Source: Rhodospirillaceae bacterium
Lineage (GTDB): Bacteria; Pseudomonadota; Alphaproteobacteria; Rhodospirillales; JABHCV01
Assembly: GCA_014382375.1 (NCBI GenBank)
Contig: JACNJU010000068.1
Span: 1 to 58,280, forward strand
Reading direction: 5' to 3'
Length of the DNA stretch: 58,280 nucleotides
Shown: piece by piece, positions 29,694 through 54,192 of the stretch
How the letters are laid out: the number at the start of each line of letters is the position of its first letter
How positions within the stretch are numbered: the stretch's first letter is position 1
Made by a program: the position numbers and the translations under genes
Notes under the pieces: model-generated
Databases searched by the model: none
Seen by the model: only the letters and a program-made list of their open reading frames with translations
Told to the model about the DNA's origin: nothing

Positions 29694-29712
29694 TGTAAAA
29701 TATAATGAGCAA
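29694..29712 (+). promoter_or_regulatory. PuuR-type operator overlapping the puuD start
   Basis: The bases at 29697-29711 read AAAATATAATGAGCA and include the puuD start codon. This agrees at 14 of 15 positions with the asymmetric E. coli PuuR recognition sequence as I remember it (AAAATATAATGAACA). It matches the sites before spuC and puuB at 15 of 19 positions. The same 69-bp gap serves the divergent MFS gene, where CAATATA (29644-29650) may be a half site. Confidence 0.65.
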
Positions 29713-30466
29713 CAAGCCCCAACCCCCGCTGATCGGTGTTTCGGGATGCCGCAAGGATATTCACGGCATCGACTACGATTGCGCCGGTCGTAAATACACC
29801 ATGGCGATTGAACAGGGTTGTCAGGCCGTGCCCTTGATTATCCCGACCGCCGGCGACGCCCTGGACAGGCAAACGCTTCTAGGAAGGGTTGACGGGCTGC
29901 TCTTTACCGGCAGTCATTCAAATGTTGAACCCCATCATTATGACGGCGATGACAGCGCCGAAGGAACCCTGCATGATCCGCACCGCGACGCAACCACCCT
30001 GCCGTTGATCCGCGAGGCCGTTGCCGCCGGTGTTCCTACCTTATGTATTTGCAGGGGCTTTCAGGAAATCAACGTCGCCTACGGCGGCACACTGCATCAA
30101 ATGGTTCAGGATCAACCCGGAATGCTCGATCATCGTGAAAATCCCGACCTGGAGCTTGCTCTTCGCTACGACCCCGTGCACGCCATCGAAATCAACCCTG
30201 ATGGCGTTTTCAGGGATATCGTTGGCTGTGACACGGCCCAGGTCAACTCCCTGCATGGTCAAGGCATTGACCGCCTTGCAGATGCGCTGCTTTGGGAAGC
30301 CAAGGCGCCGGATGGCCTGATTGAAGCGGTGTCGGTCAAACAGGCAAAGGCTTTTGCCATCGCCGTGCAGTGGCATCCCGAATGGAAGGTCACGGAAAAC
30401 CCTTTTTACCTGTCCCTGTTCGAAAAATTTTCTGCCGCTTGCCGACAATACATGGACAGTCGCTAA
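29705..30466 (+). CDS. puuD: Gamma-glutamyl-GABA hydrolase (class C26 glutamine-amidotransferase-like)
   Basis: A 253-residue hydrolase, close in length to E. coli PuuD (254). It would cleave gamma-glutamyl-GABA to glutamate and GABA, the last step of the glutamylated putrescine pathway. The nucleophile is in CICRGFQE (Cys116 by family pattern), and VQWHPEW near the C-end gives the His/Glu pair. The ATG is embedded in a PuuR-type operator with no ribosome site, so the transcript may be nearly leaderless. spuC follows after 50 bp with its own operator. Confidence 0.9.
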   Translation: MSNKPQPPLIGVSGCRKDIHGIDYDCAGRKYTMAIEQGCQAVPLIIPTAGDALDRQTLLGRVDGLLFTGSHSNVEPHHYDGDDSAEGTLHDPHRDATTLPLIREAVAAGVPTLCICRGFQEINVAYGGTLHQMVQDQPGMLDHRENPDLELALRYDPVHAIEINPDGVFRDIVGCDTAQVNSLHGQGIDRLADALLWEAKAPDGLIEAVSVKQAKAFAIAVQWHPEWKVTENPFYLSLFEKFSAACRQYMDSR

Positions 30467-30516: not shown

Positions 30517-31890
30517 ATGAACCCCATATCAAACACCACCGAACAATGGCAACAACAGGACGCGGAACACCATCTGCATCCCTTTACCGACAGTAAATCC
30601 CTGAACGCCAAAGGGGTCCATATCATCACCAGGGGTGAGGGTGTTTATCTATGGGATTCCGAAGGCAATAAATTGCTCGACGCCATGGCCGGGCTGTGGT
30701 GCGTAAATCTCGGATACGGTCGAAGTGAGCTGGTCGAAGCGGCGCGCCTGCAAATGCAGGAACTGCCCTACTACAACACTTTTTTCCAGTCCACGACCAT
30801 GCCGGCGACGGAACTTTCTGCGGCCCTTAGCGAGATCACGCCCGCTGGTTTTAATCATGCTTTCTTCGCCAATTCAGGTTCAGAAGCCAACGATACGGTG
30901 GTTCGTATGGTGCGACGCTACTGGGACCTGAAGGGCTGCAAGAACAAGAAAAATATCATCAGCCGAAACAACGCCTACCATGGTTCGACCATGGCCGGGG
31001 CCAGCCTTGGTGGCATGAAATATATGCACGAACAAGGGGAACTACCAATCCCCGGTATCGTCCACATCGAACAACCCTACTGGTATCACCTGGGCGGTGA
31101 CTTAAGCCCCGATGAATTCGGCGTTAAGATTGCGGGCGAACTGGAAGTCAAAATCAAAGAACTGGGACCTGACAACGTCGCCGCCTTTATCGGCGAGCCG
31201 ATCCAGGGTGCCGGTGGCGTGATTGTCCCGCCTGACACCTACTGGCCGGAAATCCAGCGCATTTGCGAGGCTTATGATATTTTGCTGATCGTCGACGAGG
31301 TCATTTGTGGCTTTGGCCGTACCGGCAACTGGTTTGGTAGCCATACCTATGACATCAAACCCGATCTGATGCCGATGGCCAAGGGCATGTCTTCGGGCTA
31401 CTTGCCAATTTCCGCTGTCATGGTCCATGACCGTGTCGCCAGGGTGTTAATCGATGAAGGCGGTGAATTCAATCACGGCTTTACATATTCAGGCCATCCC
31501 GTCGCCGCAGCTGTTGCCCTTGCCAACATCGAAATTCTGAAGCGCGAAAAGATCGTCGAAACTGTTGGTTCAGATACCGGTCCGTATTTGCAAAAAAGGC
31601 TACGCGAACTTGAAAACCACCCGCTGGTTGGCGAGGTGCGCGGCATTGGCCTGGTTGCTGCAATCGAGTTGGTAAAAGACAAAAAATCCCGCACCCTGTT
31701 TGATCCAACAGGTGAAGTCGGCACCATTTGTCGCGATCACTGCACCCAGAACGGCCTGATTATGCGCGCCACGGGTGACAGCATGATCCTGTCGCCGCCC
31801 CTGATCATAAGCAGAGAACAAATCGATGAACTGATGGTAATTGTCGAAAAATGCCTCGATAAAACGGCCCATGATTTGGCAGTTTCATAA
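30517..31890 (+). CDS. spuC: Class III aminotransferase, putrescine/polyamine-pyruvate type
   Basis: A 457-residue PLP-dependent omega-aminotransferase. The PLP lysine is Lys289 in PMAKGMSSGY; LLIVDEVICGFGRTG supplies the cofactor-binding Asp; NSGSEANDT binds the phosphate. The sequence style (HLHPFTDSKSLNAKG start) matches SpuC-like putrescine/spermidine:pyruvate aminotransferases, which make 4-aminobutanal and alanine; GABA or beta-alanine transamination is the alternative. CAGGT lies seven bases before the ATG. Its position in the PuuR regulon supports a polyamine substrate. Confidence 0.85.
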   Translation: MNPISNTTEQWQQQDAEHHLHPFTDSKSLNAKGVHIITRGEGVYLWDSEGNKLLDAMAGLWCVNLGYGRSELVEAARLQMQELPYYNTFFQSTTMPATELSAALSEITPAGFNHAFFANSGSEANDTVVRMVRRYWDLKGCKNKKNIISRNNAYHGSTMAGASLGGMKYMHEQGELPIPGIVHIEQPYWYHLGGDLSPDEFGVKIAGELEVKIKELGPDNVAAFIGEPIQGAGGVIVPPDTYWPEIQRICEAYDILLIVDEVICGFGRTGNWFGSHTYDIKPDLMPMAKGMSSGYLPISAVMVHDRVARVLIDEGGEFNHGFTYSGHPVAAAVALANIEILKREKIVETVGSDTGPYLQKRLRELENHPLVGEVRGIGLVAAIELVKDKKSRTLFDPTGEVGTICRDHCTQNGLIMRATGDSMILSPPLIISREQIDELMVIVEKCLDKTAHDLAVS

Positions 31891-31928: not shown

Positions 31929-32288
31929 ATGGCTGACATCAGTACAAAAATCGTACAGGAAATCCCGCTCAAACAGCGTGGGCATGACGTTCAAAATCCG
32001 CTTCTTGACACCCCGCTACCTGAGAATGCCGAAAAGAAGATTGAAGCCTCAGACCAATCGAACCCTCCGGGCTCCCAGTCCGGTCAAGGCAGCACGGACC
32101 AGAAACACACGTTCACCGTAATGATCAGTAAAAAATCAGGTGAAAGTCACGCCACCTCGATCACCGCTGGCAGCGCCGATGAAGCGCGGGCCGCTGCACA
32201 ATCTGGGCTGGGGCAAGGCGAGACCATTACGTCCGTGAGTGAGAGCACTGTGCCGATCCCTGACCCTGAGCGTGGACTTTTAGCCTAA
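31929..32288 (+). CDS. Small conserved-looking protein of unknown function in the polyamine island
   Basis: A 119-residue hydrophilic protein with no signal peptide or membrane helix. The middle (residues ~40-60) is Ser/Gln/Gly-rich and probably disordered; residues ~60-105 look folded (KHTFTVMISKKSGESHATSI followed by a short Ala-rich helix, SADEARAAAQ), perhaps a small alpha/beta domain. A strong AAGGAG lies ten bases before the ATG and codon use matches its neighbours, so it appears real. Its stop overlaps the convergent puuR stop by 4 bp. I do not recognise the family. Confidence 0.7.
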   Translation: MADISTKIVQEIPLKQRGHDVQNPLLDTPLPENAEKKIEASDQSNPPGSQSGQGSTDQKHTFTVMISKKSGESHATSITAGSADEARAAAQSGLGQGETITSVSESTVPIPDPERGLLA

Positions 32289-32833
32289 AAGTTCGGTGGT
32301 GTGGCAGCGCTGACGATCTGACATTCCTCGTCGCTGACATTTCGGAAACTGTGGGGCATCAGGCTATCGATATAATAAGCCTCGCCCTCTTTCAGATCCC
32401 TGACTTCGGTGCCCAGTGTAATCTGGATCGTACCCTTGATGACGACGCCTGATTCTTCACCTTCGTGGCTGATCATGTTCTCACCCGAACCGCTGCCCGG
32501 GGCGTAGATTTCATGCAGGACACGGAGTTTTCTGTTCCTGCGGGTCGCTCCTACCAACAACAGGGATGAGCCGCCATCGGACAATTCGACCAGATCTTCA
32601 CGACTGAAGAATGAATCCTGTTTGGGTTTCATATCCATTGTGAAGAAATCAATCAGGCTCATGGGCAGGGCCGCCAGGACTTTCTTCAATGAGTCAATGG
32701 AAGGACTGACGCGATTTTGTTCAATCAGTGAAATGGTCGAATTGGTGACACCGGCGCGCCGCGATAACTCGCGTTGCGACAAATTGTGCATCTTGCGAAT
32801 GGTTTTAAGGCGCTCACCAATATCGATAGCCAT
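32285..32833 (-). CDS. puuR: PuuR-type transcriptional repressor (HTH + cupin)
   Basis: A 182-residue regulator, matching E. coli PuuR (185) in size and architecture. Residues ~8-62 are an XRE-type helix-turn-helix (LKTIRKMHNLSQRELSRRAG) and residues ~105-178 a cupin (SHEGEESGVVIKGTI, then YYIDSLMPHSFRN) that would sense putrescine. AAGGT lies five bases before the ATG. It is the last gene of the leftward puuB-puuA-flavoprotein-speB-puuR operon, and three matching operator sites occur at the island's promoters, one of them its own operon's. Confidence 0.9.
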   Translation of the reverse strand: MAIDIGERLKTIRKMHNLSQRELSRRAGVTNSTISLIEQNRVSPSIDSLKKVLAALPMSLIDFFTMDMKPKQDSFFSREDLVELSDGGSSLLLVGATRRNRKLRVLHEIYAPGSGSGENMISHEGEESGVVIKGTIQITLGTEVRDLKEGEAYYIDSLMPHSFRNVSDEECQIVSAATPPNF

Positions 32834-32842
32834 TTTACCTTC

Positions 32843-33763
32843 CTACTTGTTCTTTTTGACTGCCAACAGACACAGATAAGTCCAGACAAACGTCGCGGCT
32901 GCCAGCGAGGTGATTTGCGCCTGATCGTAGGCGGGCGCGACCTCGACCATATCCATGCTAACTAGATTCAGATCACCCAGTTTTTTCATAATCGCCAGCG
33001 CCTGCCAGGTGAACAACCCGCCGACTTCCGGCGTTCCGGTGCCGGGGGCCTGGGAAGGATCAATACCGTCGATATCGAAAGTCAGGTAGACAGCATTGTC
33101 GCCGACCGTCTTTTTGACCGCCGCGACGACCGCCTCGACCCCACCGGTATGAACCTGTTCGGCGCTGACAACGTGAAATCCCAACTCATCTGTTGTGTAA
33201 TCCATGACATCATTATCAACGGGCGAACGGATCCCAATCTGAATGCTGCGCTTGGGATCAATCAGCCCTTCCTGGGCGGCGTAATGAAACGGCGTTCCAT
33301 GGCCGACAGGACCGCCGAAGTTTTCCTTCCAGGTATCCACATGCGCATCAAAGTGAAGCAGCGAGACGCCCTTGCCATGGCGCTCTGCCTGGGCCCGCAA
33401 AATCGGCAAGGTCACCGTATGATCACCGCCAAGGGCGACAAGATGGCCGTCGATGCCGCGCACCTGCCCCTCGATCATATCCACCGACTTTTCCAGATAG
33501 CCATTGGCGATATCAAGATCACCGGCATCGATGCAGCGCAGGTCTTCGCCGGGATTGACCCTTAATTCAGGGTGATCACCATCCAACAACATCAGACTGG
33601 CTTCGCGAATGCCTGCCGGGCCGAAGCGGCAACCGGGACGGTTGGTGGTTCCCAAATCAAAGGGAATACCGACGACCGTTACGTCAGGTCGCTGGCCATC
33701 ACTTAGCTGATCGGGAAATTGCAGAAAAGTCCTGCGGCCTGAAAATGTTGGTTGATCGTTCAT
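32843..33763 (-). CDS. speB: Agmatinase / ureohydrolase
   Basis: A 306-residue member of the arginase/agmatinase family. The manganese ligands are seen in LGGDHTVTLP, HFDAHVDTW and TFDIDGIDPS. Agmatinase turns agmatine into putrescine and urea, which feeds the neighbouring PuuA/SpuC routes; guanidinobutyrase or another guanidino substrate is the alternative. GGAG lies nine bases before the ATG. The next gene, puuR, follows after 9 bp. Confidence 0.9.
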   Translation of the reverse strand: MNDQPTFSGRRTFLQFPDQLSDGQRPDVTVVGIPFDLGTTNRPGCRFGPAGIREASLMLLDGDHPELRVNPGEDLRCIDAGDLDIANGYLEKSVDMIEGQVRGIDGHLVALGGDHTVTLPILRAQAERHGKGVSLLHFDAHVDTWKENFGGPVGHGTPFHYAAQEGLIDPKRSIQIGIRSPVDNDVMDYTTDELGFHVVSAEQVHTGGVEAVVAAVKKTVGDNAVYLTFDIDGIDPSQAPGTGTPEVGGLFTWQALAIMKKLGDLNLVSMDMVEVAPAYDQAQITSLAAATFVWTYLCLLAVKKNK

Positions 33764-33782: not shown

Positions 33783-35822
33783 TTAAAATTCACCAAGTCG
33801 GGAAAGCTCACGCTTGAACGAAACACCGTCATTTGCAGGCTCGTCCAGTTCACGAGCATAGCGGTGGCCTGCGTAGACAGCGTGGGCGATGGTCGCGGGG
33901 GCAAGGGCGTCGCCAATTCTGGTAACGTTGCCAGCACCCGAAAGCGCCTGGTAAAGAGTGTCATCAGGCAACCGCATGGTCACCATGACAATACTGGCAG
34001 CAGGCAAGCTGGTTCGTTGCTCCGTATAAACACAGGCCAACTCAACATGATCGGAATGAATCCCGGTCAGGTTTTGACAGGTGACGATTTTGATTCCCAT
34101 GTTGAGTAAACGTGTCTGAATGCGTTCCTGCTCAAGGGTGTTATGGGTCCAGCTTGATGCTTCGCTTGCCGGGGTCAGCAGCGTCACCTCAAGGCCACGA
34201 CCGCGTAGCTCTTCGGCGATGACGCCGCCCATGTAGTAATGATCATCATCGAACACGACAACCGGCCCGGTTGGGCTGGCACCTGCGATAATGTCATCGG
34301 GCGTAAACACCTGTGCCCCGTCGCTGCCGGGGATAGGCCTGGTATTGGCCCGACCGATACCATTCTGGACCCAGTGCGCGCCGGTCGCCAACACCACATG
34401 ATCGGCCGCCATTTCTTCCACATGCCCGGGCTCGAGTTTACTATCCAGATAGATTTCCACATTGGTCATGGTCTGGATTTGAGAGGTACGGTAATCGCGG
34501 ACCCGACCCCAGGCGCCAAGACCCGGCAACCTGCATTCATTTGCCACACGCCCGCCCAGCTCTGTTTTCGCTTCGGCCAGCGTCACATCATAACCACGCA
34601 GGCCAAGAGCGCGCGTACATTCAAGCCCGGCAGGGCCAGAACCGATAACCAGAACTTGGCTATCTGATTTTTTTCCGGGAATTTTTTCGGGGTGCCAGCC
34701 GCGCCGCCATTCTTCACCCATGGTCGGGTTTTGTGTGCAGCGCATCGGGGTCATCAGGTTATCACCGCTGACGCAGATATTACAGCCGATGCACTCACGA
34801 ATACTGTCAAGGTCACCGCTCTCGATTTTGTTGGGCAGGAATGGGTCGGCGATTGACGGTCGGGCCGCACCGATCATGTCAAGGACACCGCGTTTGATTT
34901 GACTGACCATGGTGTCAGGCGAGGTAAAGCGACCGACACCGACGACCGGTTTCGTGGTCAGGCCCTTGACGAAGGAAATGTATTTTTCCTGGGCTCCCTC
35001 TTCACCAAAGCGCGAAGTTTCAGAATCATTTGCCCAGTTGCTGATGTTGACGTCCCAAAGATCAGGTAATTCAGCCAGCATCTCGACGATCTCGCGGCCT
35101 TCTTCGGCGGCCGTAATGCCATCAGGCCCCAACAGTTCATCGACGGCCAAACGCACGGCGACGGCACAAGTATCGCCAACGGCCTCTTTTGTTTCTTCGA
35201 TCATCTGGCGGAAAAAACGAACCCGGTTTTCCAGACTGCCGCCATATTCATCAGTGCGATTGTTATATCGACGGGACATAAAGTGCATGGGCAGCGACAG
35301 GTTATGTCCGGCGTAACAGTAAACAATATCGAAACCGGCCTGCTTGGCGCGCACTGCCGCCTCGCGATGCCAGCGCAGGACATCCCGGATATCAGACTTA
35401 TCCATGGCGTAGGCCTGCACCGGGTCCAGGTTTGAACCGATAAGGCTGGACACAGCCATGGGAACTTCCCGGCTGTAACGATTAGCCGTTTCGTGGCCCT
35501 GATAAACCAGTTCTATACCGGCCAGCGAGCCATACTCATGAACGGCGTCGGTCATCCGCGCCAGATGGGAAATATCACTGTCATCCCACAAGCGTTCCTC
35601 GGCATGGGGCGAAACATCAGTCTTGGGGTGAATTTCACATTCTTCGGTACAAATAACAGCCCAGCCACCTTCGGCCTTGGTGCGCCGCATGGCCGCAGTG
35701 CTCGACGGATAACGATGGCCCATGCCGTTGCAGTGGGGAACCTGATAGAAACGATTTTTCGCCGTCACCGGACCAATCTTCACCGGTTCAAATAAAATAT
35801 CGTACCTGGGGTCGCGGCTCAT
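33783..35822 (-). CDS. Trimethylamine-dehydrogenase-family iron-sulfur flavoprotein, unknown amine substrate
   Basis: A 679-residue protein with an FMN barrel (about 1-340), a [4Fe-4S] site (Cys344, 347, 350, 362) and FAD/NAD-fold domains (from ~385, VLVIGSGPAGLE). It resembles trimethylamine/dimethylamine dehydrogenase throughout: Cys31 in FYQVPHC matches the 6-S-cysteinyl-FMN cysteine, and Tyr170, His173 and Asp266 match catalytic residues. In the substrate bowl, TMADH Tyr60 is replaced by Glu61 and the segment carrying Trp355 is rebuilt (CVSGDNLM), while Trp263 is kept. The substrate is therefore probably not trimethylamine; an N-methylated or polyamine-derived amine fits the operon. It overlaps puuA by 4 bp. 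Confidence 0.85.
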   Translation of the reverse strand: MSRDPRYDILFEPVKIGPVTAKNRFYQVPHCNGMGHRYPSSTAAMRRTKAEGGWAVICTEECEIHPKTDVSPHAEERLWDDSDISHLARMTDAVHEYGSLAGIELVYQGHETANRYSREVPMAVSSLIGSNLDPVQAYAMDKSDIRDVLRWHREAAVRAKQAGFDIVYCYAGHNLSLPMHFMSRRYNNRTDEYGGSLENRVRFFRQMIEETKEAVGDTCAVAVRLAVDELLGPDGITAAEEGREIVEMLAELPDLWDVNISNWANDSETSRFGEEGAQEKYISFVKGLTTKPVVGVGRFTSPDTMVSQIKRGVLDMIGAARPSIADPFLPNKIESGDLDSIRECIGCNICVSGDNLMTPMRCTQNPTMGEEWRRGWHPEKIPGKKSDSQVLVIGSGPAGLECTRALGLRGYDVTLAEAKTELGGRVANECRLPGLGAWGRVRDYRTSQIQTMTNVEIYLDSKLEPGHVEEMAADHVVLATGAHWVQNGIGRANTRPIPGSDGAQVFTPDDIIAGASPTGPVVVFDDDHYYMGGVIAEELRGRGLEVTLLTPASEASSWTHNTLEQERIQTRLLNMGIKIVTCQNLTGIHSDHVELACVYTEQRTSLPAASIVMVTMRLPDDTLYQALSGAGNVTRIGDALAPATIAHAVYAGHRYARELDEPANDGVSFKRELSRLGEF

Positions 35823-37174
35823 CCTTCAGGCCTCAAATACCATTCGTATTCACGCGGGCTGGCTTCGGCCATGAAATTTTCCATCTCGTCACGTTTGCAG
35901 GTGACGTAGAGGTCGCAATATTCCTTGCCCAGATATTCCGCCATGACCTCGGATTTTTCCAACACATTGAGTGCCCGGTGCCATTTTTTTGGTAAACCGT
36001 GATCATCCACAGGCGGGGTATCAATCCCCGCCGGCGGCGGTGGCGATATTTTTTTGCTGATGCCGTGATGCATTCCGGCAAGAACAGCCGCCAGGGCCAG
36101 GTATGGGTTGGCGTCGGCACCGGCAATCCTGTGCTCAAGCCTGCGGTTGGCGTCGTCACCGGCTGGAATCCTGATCGCAACTGAGCGATTGTTGGCACCC
36201 CACGATCGGGAAATTGGAACGTAAGTGCCTGGCATAAAACGCCTGAAGGAGTTGATGTTGGGGGCAAAAATGGCCATCGCATCAGCCATCGTATCGAGCA
36301 ATCCAGCGACGGCGTTATGGAGGATTTCGTTGCCCGTTTCATCACCACCGGAAAAGACATTATTGCCCTTCTCGTCAAGCAGGCTGACATGCATATGCAT
36401 CCCGCTGCCCGATTGATCCGGGTAAGGCTTGGCCATAAACGTCGCATTGACGCCGTGGACACGCGCGACCCCCTTGACCACACGTGGCAGCAACAATGCA
36501 TGATCACAGGCGACCAGCGGATCATCCGTGTGCATCAGGTTTATTTCGTACTGCCCTGTGGCCAGTTCAGACGTTACAGGTCCGACCGGGATTTTTTGAA
36601 TTTTGCAACATTCGGCCACCTGATCCAGATACAACGCAAACCCTTCAAGGTCACTGATGCTAAGAACCTGGGTGCCCGAAGCGCGGCGTCCTGTGGAGGG
36701 CAGGATTGGCGGTTTCGGATTTCCTTCCATGCCCCCTTCCGGATCAATCAAATAGAATTCCTGCTCCAGCGCGACAACCGGCCTCAGGCCAATGTCGCTA
36801 AATCGATTCAGCACCCTTTGCAAAACATGGCGAGGGTCAAAAATGTAGGGGGTTCCATCCTCTTCAAAAAATGAAACCAGCAACTGCGCCATCGGCTTTT
36901 CAAACCACGGCACCATGACCAAAGAACCGGCCACCGGATGAGCTGTCACATCCGGGTCACCATCGCTGACCCCCATACCACTCGGATCATCCGTATCCCC
37001 GCGCACGTCAAGAAACACCGATGAGCCGGGAAGCTGGAAACCCTTTTTATAAATTGATTCAATACCACCGCGAGCAATGCGTTTGCCACGAATGACACCA
37101 CACAGGTCGGGTATTATGGTGTCGAAGGTTTCAACGTCCGGGTGCTTGTCCAAAAAATCAGAAACTTCACTCAT
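35819..37174 (-). CDS. puuA: Gamma-glutamylputrescine synthetase (glutamine-synthetase family)
   Basis: A 451-residue GS-like ligase. It would join glutamate to putrescine using ATP, the entry step of the Puu pathway. GS motifs are present: VALEQEFYLIDPEGG, the HMHVSL ATP/metal segment, and NSFRRFMPGTYVP-type loop with the RIPAGDDANRRLEHR active-site stretch. The start at ATG 37174 is supported by AGGTG six bases before it; GTG 37183 is in frame but lacks one. Nine bases separate it from puuB. Genuine glutamine synthetase is less likely because of length and context. Confidence 0.88.
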   Translation of the reverse strand: MSEVSDFLDKHPDVETFDTIIPDLCGVIRGKRIARGGIESIYKKGFQLPGSSVFLDVRGDTDDPSGMGVSDGDPDVTAHPVAGSLVMVPWFEKPMAQLLVSFFEEDGTPYIFDPRHVLQRVLNRFSDIGLRPVVALEQEFYLIDPEGGMEGNPKPPILPSTGRRASGTQVLSISDLEGFALYLDQVAECCKIQKIPVGPVTSELATGQYEINLMHTDDPLVACDHALLLPRVVKGVARVHGVNATFMAKPYPDQSGSGMHMHVSLLDEKGNNVFSGGDETGNEILHNAVAGLLDTMADAMAIFAPNINSFRRFMPGTYVPISRSWGANNRSVAIRIPAGDDANRRLEHRIAGADANPYLALAAVLAGMHHGISKKISPPPPAGIDTPPVDDHGLPKKWHRALNVLEKSEVMAEYLGKEYCDLYVTCKRDEMENFMAEASPREYEWYLRPEG

Positions 37175-37183
37175 CAAAATCAC

Positions 37184-38455
37184 CTAACTCAAAAAATCGC
37201 GCATTTTGTAATACATCATCCCCAAAGCCAGCATTGGCATACGGATCGGCCCACCGGGGAACGGCTGGTGGCGGATTTTCGCCATGACGTCAAACTGTTC
37301 GGCAGTGCCGGCAATGGCCTGGGCGATCAACTTTCCACAAATGCCCGTGTGGGCGACACCATGACCGGAATAACCGTGGGCAAAAAAGATATTTCCCTCC
37401 AGCGATCCGACATGGGGCAAGCGATCCAGAGTGATCGCCAGATTGCCCCCCCAGGCGTAATCAAGCCGTGCGTCGGCAAGCTGCGGGAAGACGTTCAACA
37501 TGCGGGGTCTGACGGCGGCAAACAAGTCAGCTGGCTCATAGCCACTGTAATTGGCGCGTCCGCCAAACAACATGCGGCCGTCTACGGACAGCCGGTAATA
37601 ATCGACAATGTTGTTGGTGCAGCTAACGGCGTCATTGTTGGGAATCAGGGCTGACGCCCGCTCCGCCCCCAATGGTTCGGTGGCGATAATAAAACTGCCG
37701 ACAGGCATCACCCTGCGGTGCAGCTTTGGTATCATGTTGCCAAGATAGGCATTTCCCGCCGCAACCAGAAATTTTGCCCGAACGCTTCCCTTGTCGGTCT
37801 TTACAGAAACGGTTGATCCTTTTTCAAGGGACAGTGCCCGCGTGTCCTCAAATATCCGCACTCCCGCTTCTTTTGCCGCACGCGCCAGTCCCAGGGCGTA
37901 ATTCAAGGGATGCAGGTGACCGGCGTTTTTTTCCCACAGCGCGCCATGATAAATTTTTGACTGCAAATGCTCTTCTAGCTGTTGTTTGTCGTAAACTGCC
38001 GTATCCGTATAGCCGTAACGTTGCCACTCATCGTGGGTATCATTGACCCAGGTCATGTGGCTGGGTTTAGCCGCCGCATGTAAATATCCCCAGCGCAGAT
38101 CACAGTCGATGTTGTGTCGTTCGACCCGTTCGCGGATCATCTCTTTGGAATCCAGTTCGACTTGCCACATGGCTTGGGCACCATCCTTGCCAACCAGTTT
38201 TTCAATGGTAGCCATGGATTTATTGTAGGCCGTACAAATCTGCCCGCCGTTTCGGCCCGACGCACCCCAGCCGACGCGCTCGCCTTCCAGCAACACCACA
38301 TCGTAACCTCGTTCAGCAAGGTGCAGGGCCGAAGAGATGCCGGTAAAACCGCCGCCAATGACACACACATCGACATTAAGATCCTCGCTCAATTGAGGAT
38401 GACGGGTATCGTCATTGGCGGTTGCTGCGTAGTAGGAAGCCGTATGCACACTCAT
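37184..38455 (-). CDS. puuB: Gamma-glutamylputrescine oxidase-type FAD enzyme
   Basis: A 423-residue DAO-family flavoprotein, the size of E. coli PuuB (426). The Rossmann motif VCVIGGGFTGISSALHLAE is at about residues 31-49, followed by the ERVGWGASGRNGGQ segment typical of PuuB. It would oxidise gamma-glutamylputrescine to the aldehyde with release of ammonia and hydrogen peroxide. The frame extends to 38509, but ATG 38455 (MSVHTASYYAAT) has GAG at ribosome-site distance. First gene of the operon, behind a PuuR-type operator. Confidence 0.9.
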   Translation of the reverse strand: MSVHTASYYAATANDDTRHPQLSEDLNVDVCVIGGGFTGISSALHLAERGYDVVLLEGERVGWGASGRNGGQICTAYNKSMATIEKLVGKDGAQAMWQVELDSKEMIRERVERHNIDCDLRWGYLHAAAKPSHMTWVNDTHDEWQRYGYTDTAVYDKQQLEEHLQSKIYHGALWEKNAGHLHPLNYALGLARAAKEAGVRIFEDTRALSLEKGSTVSVKTDKGSVRAKFLVAAGNAYLGNMIPKLHRRVMPVGSFIIATEPLGAERASALIPNNDAVSCTNNIVDYYRLSVDGRMLFGGRANYSGYEPADLFAAVRPRMLNVFPQLADARLDYAWGGNLAITLDRLPHVGSLEGNIFFAHGYSGHGVAHTGICGKLIAQAIAGTAEQFDVMAKIRHQPFPGGPIRMPMLALGMMYYKMRDFLS

Positions 38456-38518
38456 TGTTGTCACTCTTTGCAAAAAATGGATATTAGCAACACACAGACT
38501 GTCTATCAAACCAGCCTG

Positions 38519-38608: not shown

Positions 38609-39681
38609 CTAGTCGTTGGCGCTACGAAGGGCCTCGATCACCGCGTCCGTGACCTGTCTTGTCGTCGCCTCACCGCCCAGATCTTTTGGCAACACGTCGG
38701 CGGCTGCGGTTACCCGTTCGATCGCCGCCATCAGACGCGCCGCCGCCGGCTTTTCACCTAGATCCTCAAGCATCATGGATGCTGACCAGAAGGCACCAAT
38801 CGGATTGGCAATGCCCTGCCCCATGATATCGAAGGCGGAACCGTGAATGGGCTCGAACATTGACGGGAAATCTTTCTCAGGCCTGAGGTTGGCCGTCGGC
38901 GCAATCCCCATGCTGCCCGACAGGGCCGCCGCCAGATCCGAAAGGATATCCGCATGTAGATTGGTGGCGACGATAGTGTCCAGGCTTTTCGGGTCGAGCA
39001 CCATGCGGGTGGTCATGGCGTCCACCAGCATTTTATCGGTTTGGACGTCCGGGTAATCGGCTTTCACGTTGTCAAATATTTCATCCCACATCACCATGCC
39101 GTGACGCTGGGCATTGGATTTGGTGACCATGGTCAGAAGTTTGCGCGGGCGGGTCCTTGCCAGCTCAAAGGCAAAGCGGTGAATGCGCTCGACACCGCTG
39201 CGGGTGAAAACGCTGACATCCATACCCACTTCCTGTGGGAAATTCTGATGGGCGCGGCCACCGATACCGGCGTATTCACCTTCAGAATTCTCGCGCACGA
39301 TGACCCAGTCAAAATCACCGGGGCCGATGCCTGCAAGCGGACTTTTGACACCGGGCAACACCCGCGTCGGGCGGACGTTGGCGTACTGGCCAAAGCCCTG
39401 GCAAATATTCAGGCGCAACTGCCACAGGGTAATGTGATCAGGAATTCTTGGGTCACCGGCCGAGCCGAAATAAATGGCGTCAAAACCCTTCAAGGTATCA
39501 AGGCCGCCCGCAGGCATCATCTGGCCGTGTTCAAGGTAATAGTCTGCCCCCCAGGGAAAGGACTGAACATCAAGATTAAAGCCGCCGTCTTTTTCGGCCA
39601 GTGCGGCCAGCACCTCGACCCCGGCGGTAATGACTTCACCACCGATACCATCACCGGGAATGGCTGCAATGCGATACGTCG

Positions 39682-39685
<4 letters not shown>
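38609..39685 (-). CDS. Tartrate/D-malate dehydrogenase-type beta-decarboxylating dehydrogenase
   Basis: A 358-residue member of the isocitrate/isopropylmalate dehydrogenase family. The substrate loop VIVRENSEGEYAGIGGR and the cofactor region GSAFDIMGQGIANPIG match the tartrate dehydrogenase (TtuC) / D-malate dehydrogenase (DmlA) group rather than LeuB or Icd. It is NAD-dependent by family pattern. It overlaps phaZ by 4 bp (ATGA), so the two are co-translated. Its end lies 153 bp before the puuB start, with the Puu promoter in between, so it is probably not part of the polyamine operon. Confidence 0.85.
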
Positions 39686-40908
<1,223 letters not shown>

Positions 40909-50535: not shown

Positions 50536-53500
50536 ATGTCGGATGACCACCTGAAACTGCGCGCCGCGACCCGTGCCGCCTATATTTGTGACGAGACCGA
50601 AGCCGTTGAACACCTGACCCAGGCGATGAAACTCGACCCGGCGGCGCGCCAGCGCATTGAGCAGGCGGCGACCGTTCTTGTCGACAAATTACGCCATGAC
50701 AAACAACCCGGCATGATGGAGACGTTTCTGGCCGAATACGGGTTGAGCACCGATGAGGGCGTCGCCCTGATGTGTCTCGCCGAAGCGCTGCTCAGGGTTC
50801 CCGACAACCTGACCATGGACGCCTTGATTCAGGATAAGATCGCCCCCGCAAATTGGGGCAAACACCTGGGCCAATCCGGATCACCCCTGGTCAATGCTTC
50901 AACCTGGGCATTGATGCTGACGGGTAAAGTGATCGCACCCGAAGATGCCGAGCAACTTGATATTGCCGGTACCGTGAGGGCCATGATCAAGCGCATTGGC
51001 GACCCTGTGGTCCGCAACGCTGTTGGTCAGTCCATGCGGGTGCTGGGGCATCAGTTTGTATTGGGACGCGATATTGGTGAAGCGGTTAAACGCTCTGGCG
51101 GCAACGAGGCCAAGGGCTACACCCATTCCTACGACATGCTGGGCGAAGCCGCCCACTGTGCAATTGACGCACGGCGTTATTTCCTGAGTTATTCCAGCGC
51201 CATCACGGCACTGGCCAAACACTGCACTGACGCAGACCCTCACCTCAATCCCGGAATTTCGGTCAAGCTATCGGCCCTTCATCCGCGCTATGAATTCAGC
51301 CAACGGGAGCGGGCGGTCGAAGAACTGACATCCCGCACCACCAGTCTCGCCTTGCTTGCCAAAAACGCCAACATGGGTTTCAACATTGATGCCGAAGAAG
51401 CCGACCGACTGGATTTGTCACTCGACATTTTCGAAGGCGTGCTCGGCAATCCTGATTTGAAGGGATGGGACGGCTTTGGTGTCGTCGTCCAGTCCTATAT
51501 GCCGCGCGCCCTTGCCGTCATCGACTGGCTCGCCGATTTGGCGACCCGTCTCGACAGGCGGATCATGGTGCGACTGGTCAAGGGCGCTTATTGGGACAGT
51601 GAAATCAAGATTGCGCAGGAACAGGGACTGGCCGGATATCCTGTCTTTACCCGCAAGGTCTCGACAGATATTTCCTACATGGGCTGCGCCCGTCGCCTGT
51701 TTGAACATGCGGACCGAATCTATCCGCAATTCGCCACCCACAACGCTCATACGGTTGCGACTGTTCTGGAAATGGCCGGTGATTTCCAGGATTTCGAATT
51801 TCAGCGCCTCCACGGCATGGGCGAAAGCCTGTTTGAAATACTCAGACAGGACCACGGACGGCGCTGCCGGATTTATGCACCCGTTGGCGTGCACGAAGAC
51901 TTGCTTGCCTATCTGGTTCGCCGGCTTTTGGAAAACGGCGCCAATTCGTCGTTTGTCAATCAGGTCCTCGATGAAAGCGTCGCCTCAAACGATCTGGTCA
52001 GCGATCCGGTCGGGCAAGCCGAAAAACTGGACAGCATTGCCAACCCGCACATCCCCTTACCGGCCGACCTGTTCGGATCAAGCCGGAAAAATTCGCACGG
52101 CTGGAATTTGGCCGACCCGCTTGAACTGGCCGCATTGCAAGAGGGTCGTGACACTTTCAAGGAACAAACCTGGAGCGCCGCCCCGCTGATCGGTGGGGTG
52201 ATGCAGTCGGGTGACAGTCAACCGGTCCTGAACCCTGCCAATCCCGATGATCTGGTTGGTCAGGTCACGCAAGCATCGGCGGTCCATATAGAGGATGCTT
52301 TGACAAGGGCCACGGGCGCTGTCGAAAGCTGGCGCTCTTTACCTGTGAAAGAGCGCGCCGGTTGTCTTTTGCGCCTTGCCGATCTTTACGAGGAAAATGC
52401 TGTTGAACTGATGGCCATGACCGCCCGCGAAGCCGGCAAGACACTTGGCGATTGTGTCGGCGAGCTGCGTGAAGCCGTTGACTTTTGCCGTTACTACGCC
52501 GCCGAAGCCGGATTGAGCGACCAGCAACGCCAGGGCCGCGGGGTCTTCTTGTGCATTTCACCATGGAATTTCCCGCTGGCTATTTTTACCGGCCAGATCG
52601 TCGCCGCCCTGGTCAGTGGCAATGCGGTGATCGCCAAACCGGCTGAACAAACCCCCCTGATCGCCACCCGCGCCATTCAGCTTATGCATCAGGCCGGTAT
52701 TCCCGGTGATGTCCTGCACCTTTTGCCCGGTGACGGGCCCAGCGTCGGCGGGGTGCTGGCCGCCGACCCGCGCGTCAGTGGCGTCTGCTTTACCGGATCC
52801 ACCGATACCGCACGCCTTATCAACGCGACCATGGCCAGCAAAGGCAATCCACGAGCGCCGCTGATTGCTGAAACCGGCGGCCTGAACGCGATGATCGTCG
52901 ATTCAAGCGCCCTGCCCGAACAAGCGGTACGCGACATCGTCACCGCCGCCTTCCAAAGCGCCGGACAACGGTGCTCTGCCCTTCGCGTGTTGTTTGTTCA
53001 GTCAGACATTGCCGAAGGTCTTTTGACTTTGCTGGAAGGTGCCATGGATGAACTTTGCATTGGCGATCCGTGGAACCTGAAAACCGATGTCGGACCCGTC
53101 ATCGACAGCGAAGCCCAGGGTATTATCGACGCCCATTGCCAGAAAATGGAATTGCAGGGTCGCCTGATCCGAAAAATTAAGCATTCGGAAAGTACCGGGT
53201 ATTATGTCAATCCCGCTGCTTACCGCTTAGACAGTATCGCGGAATTAGAGCATGAGATTTTTGGTCCGGTGCTTCACGTCGTCACCTTCGAGGCCGAAGA
53301 CATCGACGAACTGGTCGAGGCCATCAATGCCCGGGGGTACGGGCTGACCATGGGCATTCATACCAGGGTCGATAATCGGGTACAGGACATTTGCGACAAG
53401 GCCAGGGTTGGTAACATCTACGTCAATCGCAACCAGATCGGAGCCTCCGTTGGTGTTCAACCTTTCGGCGGTGAAGGCCTGTCGGGAACCGGACCGAAGG

Positions 53501-54192
53501 CTGGCGGTCCGAATTATCTGGCCCGCTTCACGAAAAAGGATGGGCGTCATGCAGATGGCAGCGCAAACAGCCTTTCGTCTTCAGGCGAAAGCGGTGAGCT
53601 CTCCCGGCTCACCCCGGCAGCGCTTGCGGCACACCGAGCGTGGGATCAATTATCTGATCGAACGGCCATTATCAAAACTGCCGCAGAAGCCTGTTCCGTA
53701 CCGGTTCGCGACTCCATCCTGAATATCATATCGAGCGTTCCAGATTTTTCTGCCAAGGCCATCGATCTTCCGGGACCGACCGGGGAAAGCAACCGCCTGA
53801 CCATGCATGGCCGTGGGGTCTTCGTTTGCTTAGGGGGAATCACGCAAGCCGCACTGGCCTTGCTGCTTGGTAACGCGGTTATCGTTCCTAAAGATGATGA
53901 GGCGGAACGGTTTTGTGCGAAATTGCCGACGGGCCTACTTGGAATCGTTGACAAACTAACGCTTGAGGACATCGAAACCACACCAGACCTGGCCGGTGTT
54001 GTCTTTGAGGGAGACGCTGAAACCCACCGCGCCATCAGAGGATTCCTGGCAGCACGACCGGGAGCCATTTTGCCGCTGATTGATGATCTGTCGGACTGGC
54101 GTCAGATGCTGATCGAGCGCGCCCTTTGTATCGACACCACAGCCTCTGGCGGTAACGCCGCCCTGTTGGCATCGGCGGGGCTTGCTGACTAG
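50536..54192 (+). CDS. putA: Bifunctional proline dehydrogenase / P5C dehydrogenase
   Basis: A 1218-residue PutA oxidising proline to glutamate in two steps with channelling. The PRODH barrel (about 150-470) shows KGAYWDSEIK, FATHNAHTV and EFQRLHGMGE; the P5CDH part (about 540-1010) shows SPWNFPLAIFTGQI, the general-base Glu in AETGGLNAM and the nucleophile Cys in GQRCSALRV. A C-terminal extension (~1060-1218) is the aldehyde-dehydrogenase-like tail of long type PutAs. There is no N-terminal ribbon-helix-helix, so it does not regulate itself; PutR next door takes that role. Upstream ATGs at 50526 and 50529 are out of frame. Confidence 0.97.
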   Translation: MSDDHLKLRAATRAAYICDETEAVEHLTQAMKLDPAARQRIEQAATVLVDKLRHDKQPGMMETFLAEYGLSTDEGVALMCLAEALLRVPDNLTMDALIQDKIAPANWGKHLGQSGSPLVNASTWALMLTGKVIAPEDAEQLDIAGTVRAMIKRIGDPVVRNAVGQSMRVLGHQFVLGRDIGEAVKRSGGNEAKGYTHSYDMLGEAAHCAIDARRYFLSYSSAITALAKHCTDADPHLNPGISVKLSALHPRYEFSQRERAVEELTSRTTSLALLAKNANMGFNIDAEEADRLDLSLDIFEGVLGNPDLKGWDGFGVVVQSYMPRALAVIDWLADLATRLDRRIMVRLVKGAYWDSEIKIAQEQGLAGYPVFTRKVSTDISYMGCARRLFEHADRIYPQFATHNAHTVATVLEMAGDFQDFEFQRLHGMGESLFEILRQDHGRRCRIYAPVGVHEDLLAYLVRRLLENGANSSFVNQVLDESVASNDLVSDPVGQAEKLDSIANPHIPLPADLFGSSRKNSHGWNLADPLELAALQEGRDTFKEQTWSAAPLIGGVMQSGDSQPVLNPANPDDLVGQVTQASAVHIEDALTRATGAVESWRSLPVKERAGCLLRLADLYEENAVELMAMTAREAGKTLGDCVGELREAVDFCRYYAAEAGLSDQQRQGRGVFLCISPWNFPLAIFTGQIVAALVSGNAVIAKPAEQTPLIATRAIQLMHQAGIPGDVLHLLPGDGPSVGGVLAADPRVSGVCFTGSTDTARLINATMASKGNPRAPLIAETGGLNAMIVDSSALPEQAVRDIVTAAFQSAGQRCSALRVLFVQSDIAEGLLTLLEGAMDELCIGDPWNLKTDVGPVIDSEAQGIIDAHCQKMELQGRLIRKIKHSESTGYYVNPAAYRLDSIAELEHEIFGPVLHVVTFEAEDIDELVEAINARGYGLTMGIHTRVDNRVQDICDKARVGNIYVNRNQIGASVGVQPFGGEGLSGTGPKAGGPNYLARFTKKDGRHADGSANSLSSSGESGELSRLTPAALAAHRAWDQLSDRTAIIKTAAEACSVPVRDSILNIISSVPDFSAKAIDLPGPTGESNRLTMHGRGVFVCLGGITQAALALLLGNAVIVPKDDEAERFCAKLPTGLLGIVDKLTLEDIETTPDLAGVVFEGDAETHRAIRGFLAARPGAILPLIDDLSDWRQMLIERALCIDTTASGGNAALLASAGLAD

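Follow-up and report, generated by a model that had tools for sequence, protein, structure and literature searches.

A 58,280-nucleotide stretch of a Rhodospirillaceae genome (assembly GCA_014382375.1, contig JACNJU010000068.1; the whole stretch is referred to here as the window) encodes an iron-sulfur flavoprotein of the trimethylamine dehydrogenase (TMADH)/histamine dehydrogenase family within an operon of polyamine-type genes. Judged from its sequence and by analogy with characterized relatives, this flavoprotein is probably a dehydrogenase, linked to electron transfer flavoprotein (ETF), that oxidizes an amine of a polyamine-class dication, such as agmatine, putrescine or an N-methyl relative. 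That the protein is an amine dehydrogenase with the chemistry of this family is near certain, and its pocket and gene context make a polyamine-class substrate likely. An initial annotation of the same gene had described it as a TMADH-like enzyme with a rebuilt substrate bowl inside a Puu operon.

Family, cofactor ligands and fold

The open reading frame (ORF) spans exactly positions 33783-35822 on the minus strand and encodes 679 amino acids from an ATG start. The initial annotation had given no strand for the gene, which proved genuine; the frame over the same interval on the plus strand is interrupted by stop codons. Direct reading and alignment placed Cys31 at the site of the 6-S-cysteinyl link to flavin mononucleotide (FMN), the bond itself being predicted, and found all four ligands of the 4Fe-4S cluster (Cys344, Cys347, Cys350 and Cys362) and all three catalytic residues (Tyr170, His173 and Asp266). 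Glu61, also read directly, occupies the position of Tyr60 in TMADH. Every residue that had been listed was thus confirmed, but the bowl was found to be only partly changed, with Trp263 kept.

The nearest solved enzymes were the histamine dehydrogenases of Nocardioides simplex (3k30) and Rhizobium sp. 4-9 (6de6), both 55% identical to the flavoprotein. In a phmmer search against PDB sequences these scored 811 and 793 bits, followed by the 6-hydroxypseudooxynicotine amine oxidase 6l6j (734 bits) and by TMADH (1djn, 548 bits). TMADH, which had served as the yardstick, is therefore not the closest relative, and descent from TMADH with a rebuilt bowl was rejected because the pocket is of the histamine dehydrogenase type. 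No NCBIfam model reached its cut-off for the flavoprotein; the best was a mycofactocin OYE-family model (363 versus 793 bits).

An AlphaFold2 model made from 63 aligned window and locus sequences had a mean pLDDT of 95.0 and a pTM of 0.92, and a shallower input of 10 sequences gave a pLDDT of 61.9. Foldseek ranked 3k30 first (TM 0.97, 54% identity), then 6de6, 6l6j and TMADH. The TM score against TMADH entry 2tmd was 0.97 by query and 0.90 by target, so that the family fold extends over the full length. VIA-align Z scores were 66.0 and 64.4 for the two histamine dehydrogenases, compared with 64.0 for TMADH and 63.5 for 6l6j. The sequence and the predicted structure together establish the family architecture, with an FMN-linking cysteine, the 4Fe-4S cysteines, the catalytic Tyr/His/Asp and a histamine dehydrogenase fold.

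Substrate pocket

The pocket was read from an alignment to solved enzymes that contained 140 sequences: 136 distinct locus proteins, including that of the window, and four PDB sequences. The locus proteins were retained from 164 BLAST matches (E ≤ 1e-100) after repeats and proteins with fewer than 560 aligned residues were dropped, and the set is biased to close relatives, as one selection retained the best 80 of 587.

The aromatic bowl of TMADH, which we take to be Tyr60, Trp264 and Trp355, is incomplete in the window protein, where Glu61, Trp263 and Asp354 stand in these places. The segment corresponding to Trp355 is one residue shorter and has no tryptophan, and both its length and Asp354 are as in histamine dehydrogenase. 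The carboxylate that had been proposed at the Tyr60 position is therefore present, as are the shortened segment and the loss of its tryptophan, but Trp264 is kept, and the aligned pocket is of the histamine dehydrogenase type rather than a rebuilt TMADH bowl. Nor are these changes special to this protein. Position 61 was Glu in 92 of the 140 sequences, Gln in 32 and Tyr in 11, while position 354 was Asp in 115 and position 75 was Glu in 112.

The histamine ligands proposed for the Nocardioides histamine dehydrogenase are Gln65, Ile74, Phe77, Glu79, Asn115, Tyr181, Trp267 and Asp358 (PMC10180351, in the text available). Seven of these eight positions, all but Tyr181, were mapped to the window protein, as Glu61, Val70 (in place of Ile74), His73, Glu75, Glu111, Trp263 and Asp354. 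Among Gln65, Phe77, Glu79, Asn115, Trp267 and Asp358, three are kept (Glu75, Trp263 and Asp354), while Glu61, His73 and Glu111 differ. Glu111 adds a fourth carboxylate to those of Glu61, Glu75 and Asp354. An acidic residue at position 111 was found in just 10 of the 140 sequences, and all four positions were acidic in only seven: the four of the window clade described below and three other proteins (L076, L094 and L123). Glu61 and the replaced tryptophan segment are thus ordinary for the family as sampled, and on the alignment it is the additional Glu111 that is less common.

Phylogeny and paralogs

In a FastTree phylogeny of the 140 sequences, the window protein and its orthologs from three related genomes (G001, G003 and G005) formed a four-member clade with 100% support, placed at an unresolved fork. 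A quick IQ-TREE analysis of 44 chosen sequences retained this clade and joined it to L047 and L048 at 95%. The clade that holds both 3k30 and 6de6 (10-11 sequences; support of 94 and 98% in FastTree, 95 and 99% in quick IQ-TREE) left out the window clade, and 6l6j was on a long branch outside it in both trees.

The genome that contains the window (3.3 Mb, 99.4% complete) has three further family members with at least 47% identity to the flavoprotein, two on contig C203 (64% and 59%) and one on contig C68 (47%). The C68 paralog has Tyr at position 61 and the TMADH segment SRWEIGG, and is a TMADH-type gene. There were also three ETF-family matches, one ETF:ubiquinone oxidoreductase, and seven matches to the aldehyde dehydrogenase family. 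Of these seven, one is encoded in the window (52210-53535) and the remaining six elsewhere in the assembly, on different contigs from that of the window. On contig C125 of this genome (10664-14416), genes for an aldehyde dehydrogenase and a PotD-type binding protein are about 1.5 kb apart and may be partners in the pathway.

In G001 the genes for a Pot-type ABC transporter, a PRK07036 aminotransferase and a BetI-like regulator lie between two other paralogs (L150 on contig C45, 3949-14767). The transporter ATPase scored 407.6 bits against a potA cut-off of 355.6, and the PotF-, PotH- and PotI-like binding protein and permeases were below their cut-offs. In the window's own genome the C203 paralogs match those of L150, with a PotD-type gene between them. 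L150 and C203 represent a second amine cluster.

The operon and its conservation

The operon genes (Table 1) were annotated with NCBIfam and Pfam scans, ten genes around the operon being scanned. The order on the minus strand is PhaZ, tartrate dehydrogenase type, DAO-family oxidase, glutamine synthetase (GS)-like, flavoprotein, agmatinase family and PuuR-like, and the start of the flavoprotein gene overlaps the stop of the upstream GS-like gene as ATGA.

Table 1. Genes of the operon and its surroundings in the window
Feature	Position	Strand	Remarks
TMADH/histamine dehydrogenase-family iron-sulfur flavoprotein	33783..35822	-	679 aa; ORF, alignment, AlphaFold2 model, Foldseek
GS-family protein (putative PuuA-like ligase)	35819..37183	-	GGputSyn 209 bits, cut-off 650; scanned copy began at residue 5
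DAO-family FAD oxidoreductase (PuuB-like by family and place)	37184..38455	-	start at inner ATG; listed ORF begins at 38509
Ureohydrolase, agmatinase family	32843..33763	-	passes TIGR01230 and PRK02190; some guanidinobutyrase-like features
PuuR-like helix-turn-helix/cupin regulator	32285..32833	-	156 bits, cut-off 211
PuuD-like gamma-glutamyl-GABA hydrolase (peptidase C26)	29705..30466	+	195 bits, cut-off 266
Class III aminotransferase, PRK07480 subfamily	30517..31890	+	near solved polyamine:pyruvate and putrescine aminotransferases
Tartrate dehydrogenase-type decarboxylating dehydrogenase	38609..39685	-	passes TIGR02089; place in polyamine unit uncertain
Polyhydroxyalkanoate depolymerase PhaZ	39682..40908	-	overlaps tartrate dehydrogenase-type gene; probably outside operon function

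The description of this region as a Puu operon held to the extent that homologs of PuuA, PuuD and PuuR are present, but all three score below their NCBI equivalog cut-offs, and no PuuB model was among the 25 best NCBIfam models listed for the DAO-family oxidase. This oxidase also had no solved relative at E ≤ 1e-20. The best solved matches of the GS-like protein were glutamine synthetases (165 bits), with the glutamate-methylamine ligase 9qur at 118 bits; it is a putative PuuA-like ligase whose amine is not fixed by these matches. The aminotransferase matched polyamine:pyruvate transaminase 9j4z (668 bits) and putrescine aminotransferase 6gwi (625 bits), among others.

For the ureohydrolase the matches were agmatinases 4dz4 (236 bits) and 7lol (228 bits) and guanidinobutyrase 3nio (223 bits). 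Guanidinobutyrase 3nio itself passes the agmatinase model TIGR01230 (212.3 versus 174.3 bits) and narrowly misses PRK02190 (296 versus 302 bits), so these models hardly separate the two activities, and their scores were rejected as proof of an agmatinase. Two features of the window ureohydrolase, the FDIDGIDP...GTPE motif and a longer stretch following GIR/GLR, are also present in 3nio, and its APAYDQ..IT motif is found in the agmatinases. A possible substrate is 4-guanidinobutyrate.

Sixty genomes, the window's own included, were searched as relatives, and four contained a family member at E ≤ 1e-150. In all four a 75-100% ortholog was found with a GS-like gene directly upstream and an agmatinase-family gene directly downstream. 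Neither G002, from the same genus, nor G004, from the same family, had a member at this threshold. The order from PhaZ to PuuR was retained in G001 and G003. After its agmatinase-family gene, G005 has in turn genes for an SDR protein, a PRK07046 transaminase, a PotF/D-like binding protein, a permease-like protein, a PotC-like permease, an ATPase and PuuR; its PuuD-like and aminotransferase genes lie on the opposite strand. The G005 ATPase was above the polyamine potA cut-off (387.9 versus 355.6 bits), and the binding protein and the PotC-like permease were below equivalog cut-offs. Ahead of the operon, the tartrate dehydrogenase-type gene and PhaZ are present in the window and in G001 and G003, but this place in G005 (L134) gave no match to them.

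Neighborhoods across the wider family

A class-wide search covered 385 genomes (including the window's own) and scored up to three candidates per genome, so that members were missed; at least 43 genomes contained a member at E ≤ 1e-200. Neighbors were counted at 61 listed places outside the window's family, and the observed numbers are lower bounds. A GS homolog was within 10 kb at two or more of the 61 places (0.79 expected), and an agmatinase-family homolog at four or more (1.18 expected, among the places listed); neither was found within 5 kb at the places listed. On these counts, the idea that the family is generally associated with GS or agmatinase genes across the class was rejected. PotD-type binding proteins were encoded within 10 kb at no fewer than eight of the places (2.05 expected; P ~0.0008 with genomes treated as independent) and within 5 kb at no fewer than four (1.04 expected; P 0.02). 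The places were chosen beforehand, and three distances besides 10 kb were also computed. One genus (g79) contributed 5 of the 12 PotD-type places within 15 kb and 2 of the 8 within 10 kb. A separate scan for Pot proteins in 105 regions (the window and 104 loci) found at least one in 19.

Polyamine-type genes recurred in part beside members from SAR324 that belong to a different clade of the tree from that of the window. L060 encodes an aminotransferase split over two frames, a family member, a GS-like gene, a second aminotransferase, a second member and Pot genes, and L084 encodes a GS-like protein, a member and a PRK07480 aminotransferase. No GS match was found in L063, which has an aminotransferase gene and a broken agmatinase-family gene, and L061 is just 4 kb long. 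The agmatinase-family gene after the flavoprotein gene of L063 (12138-13004) contains two in-frame stops, indicating that it is broken or misassembled; with these stops, and a short-loop subtype as judged by eye, it was rejected as support. The polyamine-type context that had been claimed for the window is therefore kept in all four orthologs and partly recurs in L060 and L084 (not in L063 or the short L061). The suggestion that homologs might never occur with polyamine genes does not hold for the close clade, but outside the window's family GS and agmatinase neighbors are at most weakly above chance.

As a whole, L060 (1179-17370) has the appearance of a cluster for both methylated amines and polyamines. 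In L076, from a gammaproteobacterium, a GS-like stretch (47%) was found beside the family member. Several Rhodobacteraceae or Roseobacter-type contigs (L052, L054, L057, L058 and L059) carry two or three members in a row, from different tree clades where these could be placed, and L054, L057 and L058 also carry Pot-type genes.

Proposed function

On analogy with the family, the amine would bind over the FMN and be oxidized to an imine, which water would split to an aldehyde and a free amine. The related enzyme Pno contains FMN, a 4Fe-4S cluster and ADP; its electron acceptor is EtfAB, and the oxygen in its product derives from water (PMC7688666, in the text available). By this analogy, dehydrogenation of a C-N bond followed by water-dependent release of an aldehyde is expected for the flavoprotein. 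Electrons would pass from FMN to the 4Fe-4S cluster, to ETF and to ETF:ubiquinone oxidoreductase, genes for the last two of which are in the genome. The pocket and gene context suggest that Glu61, Glu75, Glu111 and Asp354 may hold the far cationic end of a polyamine-class dication, and two more carboxylates than in histamine dehydrogenase would favor longer or doubly charged amines.

The first candidates would be agmatine and putrescine, oxidized at a primary amine as in the side activities of histamine dehydrogenases. The Rhizobium enzyme is reported to oxidize agmatine at 10% and 1,3-diaminopropane at 13% of the rate with histamine, and the Nocardioides enzyme putrescine at 30% (excerpts of PMC10180351). 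An N-methylated C4 amine such as N-methylputrescine would come next, by comparison with the 6-hydroxypseudooxynicotine amine oxidase, which has Glu60 and acts on an N-methylaminobutyl chain. If agmatine is the substrate, the product would be 4-guanidinobutanal, which an aldehyde dehydrogenase could oxidize before the neighboring ureohydrolase released urea and gamma-aminobutyric acid (GABA); putrescine would be processed alongside by the products of the GS-like, DAO-family, PuuD-like and aminotransferase genes.

Several observations weigh against this assignment. No aldehyde dehydrogenase was found among the operon genes scanned, and the other genes of the operon could degrade putrescine without the flavoprotein. 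The fold does not by itself separate the subfamilies, the VIA-align Z values being close. Glu61 is the commonest state at its position and thus uninformative about polyamines on its own; as a polyamine signature it was rejected. The four acids together were likewise rejected as a sufficient mark of polyamine context because the Chloroflexota loci L094 and L123, which share them, have other neighbors: no GS-, agmatinase-, aminotransferase- or Pot-like neighbor appeared in the scans made of them. Enrichment of GS and agmatinase genes near members outside the window's family is weak at best, and L060 carries, besides its polyamine-type genes, an MttB-like methyltransferase and a Rieske oxygenase, typical of methylated-amine breakdown. 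Finally, a Pot-type transporter is not proof of polyamines, because a nicotine cluster that contains a family member has one too (PMC5500553, in the portion available).

A more specific proposal is that the window clade is a dedicated ETF-linked agmatine or polyamine dehydrogenase which, with the ureohydrolase as guanidinobutyrase, forms an undescribed respiratory route from agmatine through 4-guanidinobutanal and 4-guanidinobutyrate to GABA and urea, and that in SAR324 and other bacteria a similar role is played by related flavoproteins encoded next to GS-like, aminotransferase and Pot genes. We regard this as unlikely.

Alternative substrates

The flavoprotein might instead be an N-demethylase or a methylamine-releasing dehydrogenase for a methylated amine, such as N-methylputrescine or another methylated C4 amine; this is possible, if rather doubtful. 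A C-N bond of the secondary amine would be oxidized, giving either formaldehyde and a shorter amine or methylamine and an aldehyde, and the Puu-like enzymes would take the rest; for methylated polyamines this overlaps with a polyamine-class dehydrogenase. Consistent with such a role, 6l6j has Glu at the same position and shares an HNLSL stretch, and the related Pno acts on an N-methylaminobutyl chain with release of methylamine (PMC7688666 and PMC5500553, each as far as available). The MttB-like and Rieske genes of the SAR324 island, which also holds family members, GS-like and Pot genes, point in the same direction, as do the match of the GS-like protein to a glutamate-methylamine ligase, lower than that to the best glutamine synthetase, and the TMADH-type gene elsewhere in the genome, which suggests that the organism may use methylated amines. 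Yet no formaldehyde-handling gene was found among the ten scanned genes around the operon, and in 6l6j, which falls outside the window clade, the FMN cysteine is replaced by Ala.

Degradation of histamine, with the polyamine-type neighbors reflecting general handling of biogenic amines, would fit the 55% identity, the common fold and the retention of Trp263, Glu75 and Asp354. Two members of the histamine dehydrogenase clade, L135 and L055, also have Glu at position 61. This is nevertheless improbable: the window clade lies outside the histamine dehydrogenase clade in both trees, ligand positions are changed (Gln to Glu at 61, Phe to His or Asn at 73 and Asn to Glu at 111), and the sole histidine-pathway match among the ten scanned genes was that of the ureohydrolase to HutG, far below the cut-off (110 versus 229 bits).

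Action on a gamma-glutamylated intermediate made by the GS-like ligase (gamma-glutamyl-putrescine or gamma-glutamyl-agmatine), so that the flavoprotein performs or shares the PuuB step, would suit the ATGA overlap and the gene order kept in all four orthologs, but is very improbable, since the operon already has a DAO-family oxidase and the acidic pocket should repel the free carboxylate of the gamma-glutamyl group.

Comparison with known systems

To our knowledge, few members of the large TMADH/histamine dehydrogenase flavoprotein family have a known substrate. With a GS-like ligase gene fixed on one side and a ureohydrolase gene on the other, the window clade offers a definite substrate class that can be tested. 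If polyamines are indeed oxidized through ETF, their catabolism would gain an entry point coupled to the respiratory chain, in addition to oxidases, aminotransferases and gamma-glutamylation, and the flavoprotein could then mark polyamine use in genomes. The initial annotation knew of no standard Puu pathway with such an enzyme, and in agreement with this the open-licence literature searched contained no report of the family in polyamine catabolism; in the available text of a paper on polyamines in SAR11 (PMC8437039) the word "trimethylamine" was absent. The family is known, but the window clade and its operon appear undescribed.

The closest characterized enzymes, the histamine dehydrogenases 3k30 and 6de6, share with the window protein the fold (TM 0.97), 55% of residues, the cysteinyl-FMN site, the 4Fe-4S ligands, the catalytic Tyr/His/Asp and, in the pocket, the short segment with Asp354, Trp263 and Glu75. 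They differ in having Gln, Phe and Asn where the window protein has Glu61, His73 and Glu111, and they form a separate clade, whereas the window protein is encoded in a polyamine-type operon. The 6-hydroxypseudooxynicotine amine oxidase 6l6j (HisD of Pseudomonas geniculata; 52% identity) also has Glu where TMADH has Tyr60 and shares the HNLSL stretch, but has Ala for Cys31 and no Asp at position 354 in the alignment, and belongs to a nicotine rather than a polyamine pathway. Pno of Agrobacterium S33 donates electrons to ETF (PMC7688666), and its gene cluster includes Pot-type ABC genes (PMC5500553), according to the parts of these papers available.

TMADH (1djn and 2tmd) has the same cofactor ligands, catalytic triad and fold, and its Trp264 corresponds to Trp263. 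It is only 45% identical, has Tyr60 and Trp355 in place of Glu61 and Asp354, and has a separate counterpart in the window's own genome, the TMADH-type gene on C68. The Puu pathway of Escherichia coli, whose layout we give from general knowledge, has in common with the window the homologs of PuuA, PuuD and PuuR and a PuuB-like DAO-family oxidase in or beside the operon. The PuuA-, PuuD- and PuuR-like proteins of the window fall below the cut-offs for their namesakes, and to this set the window operon adds the flavoprotein, a ureohydrolase and a polyamine-type aminotransferase.

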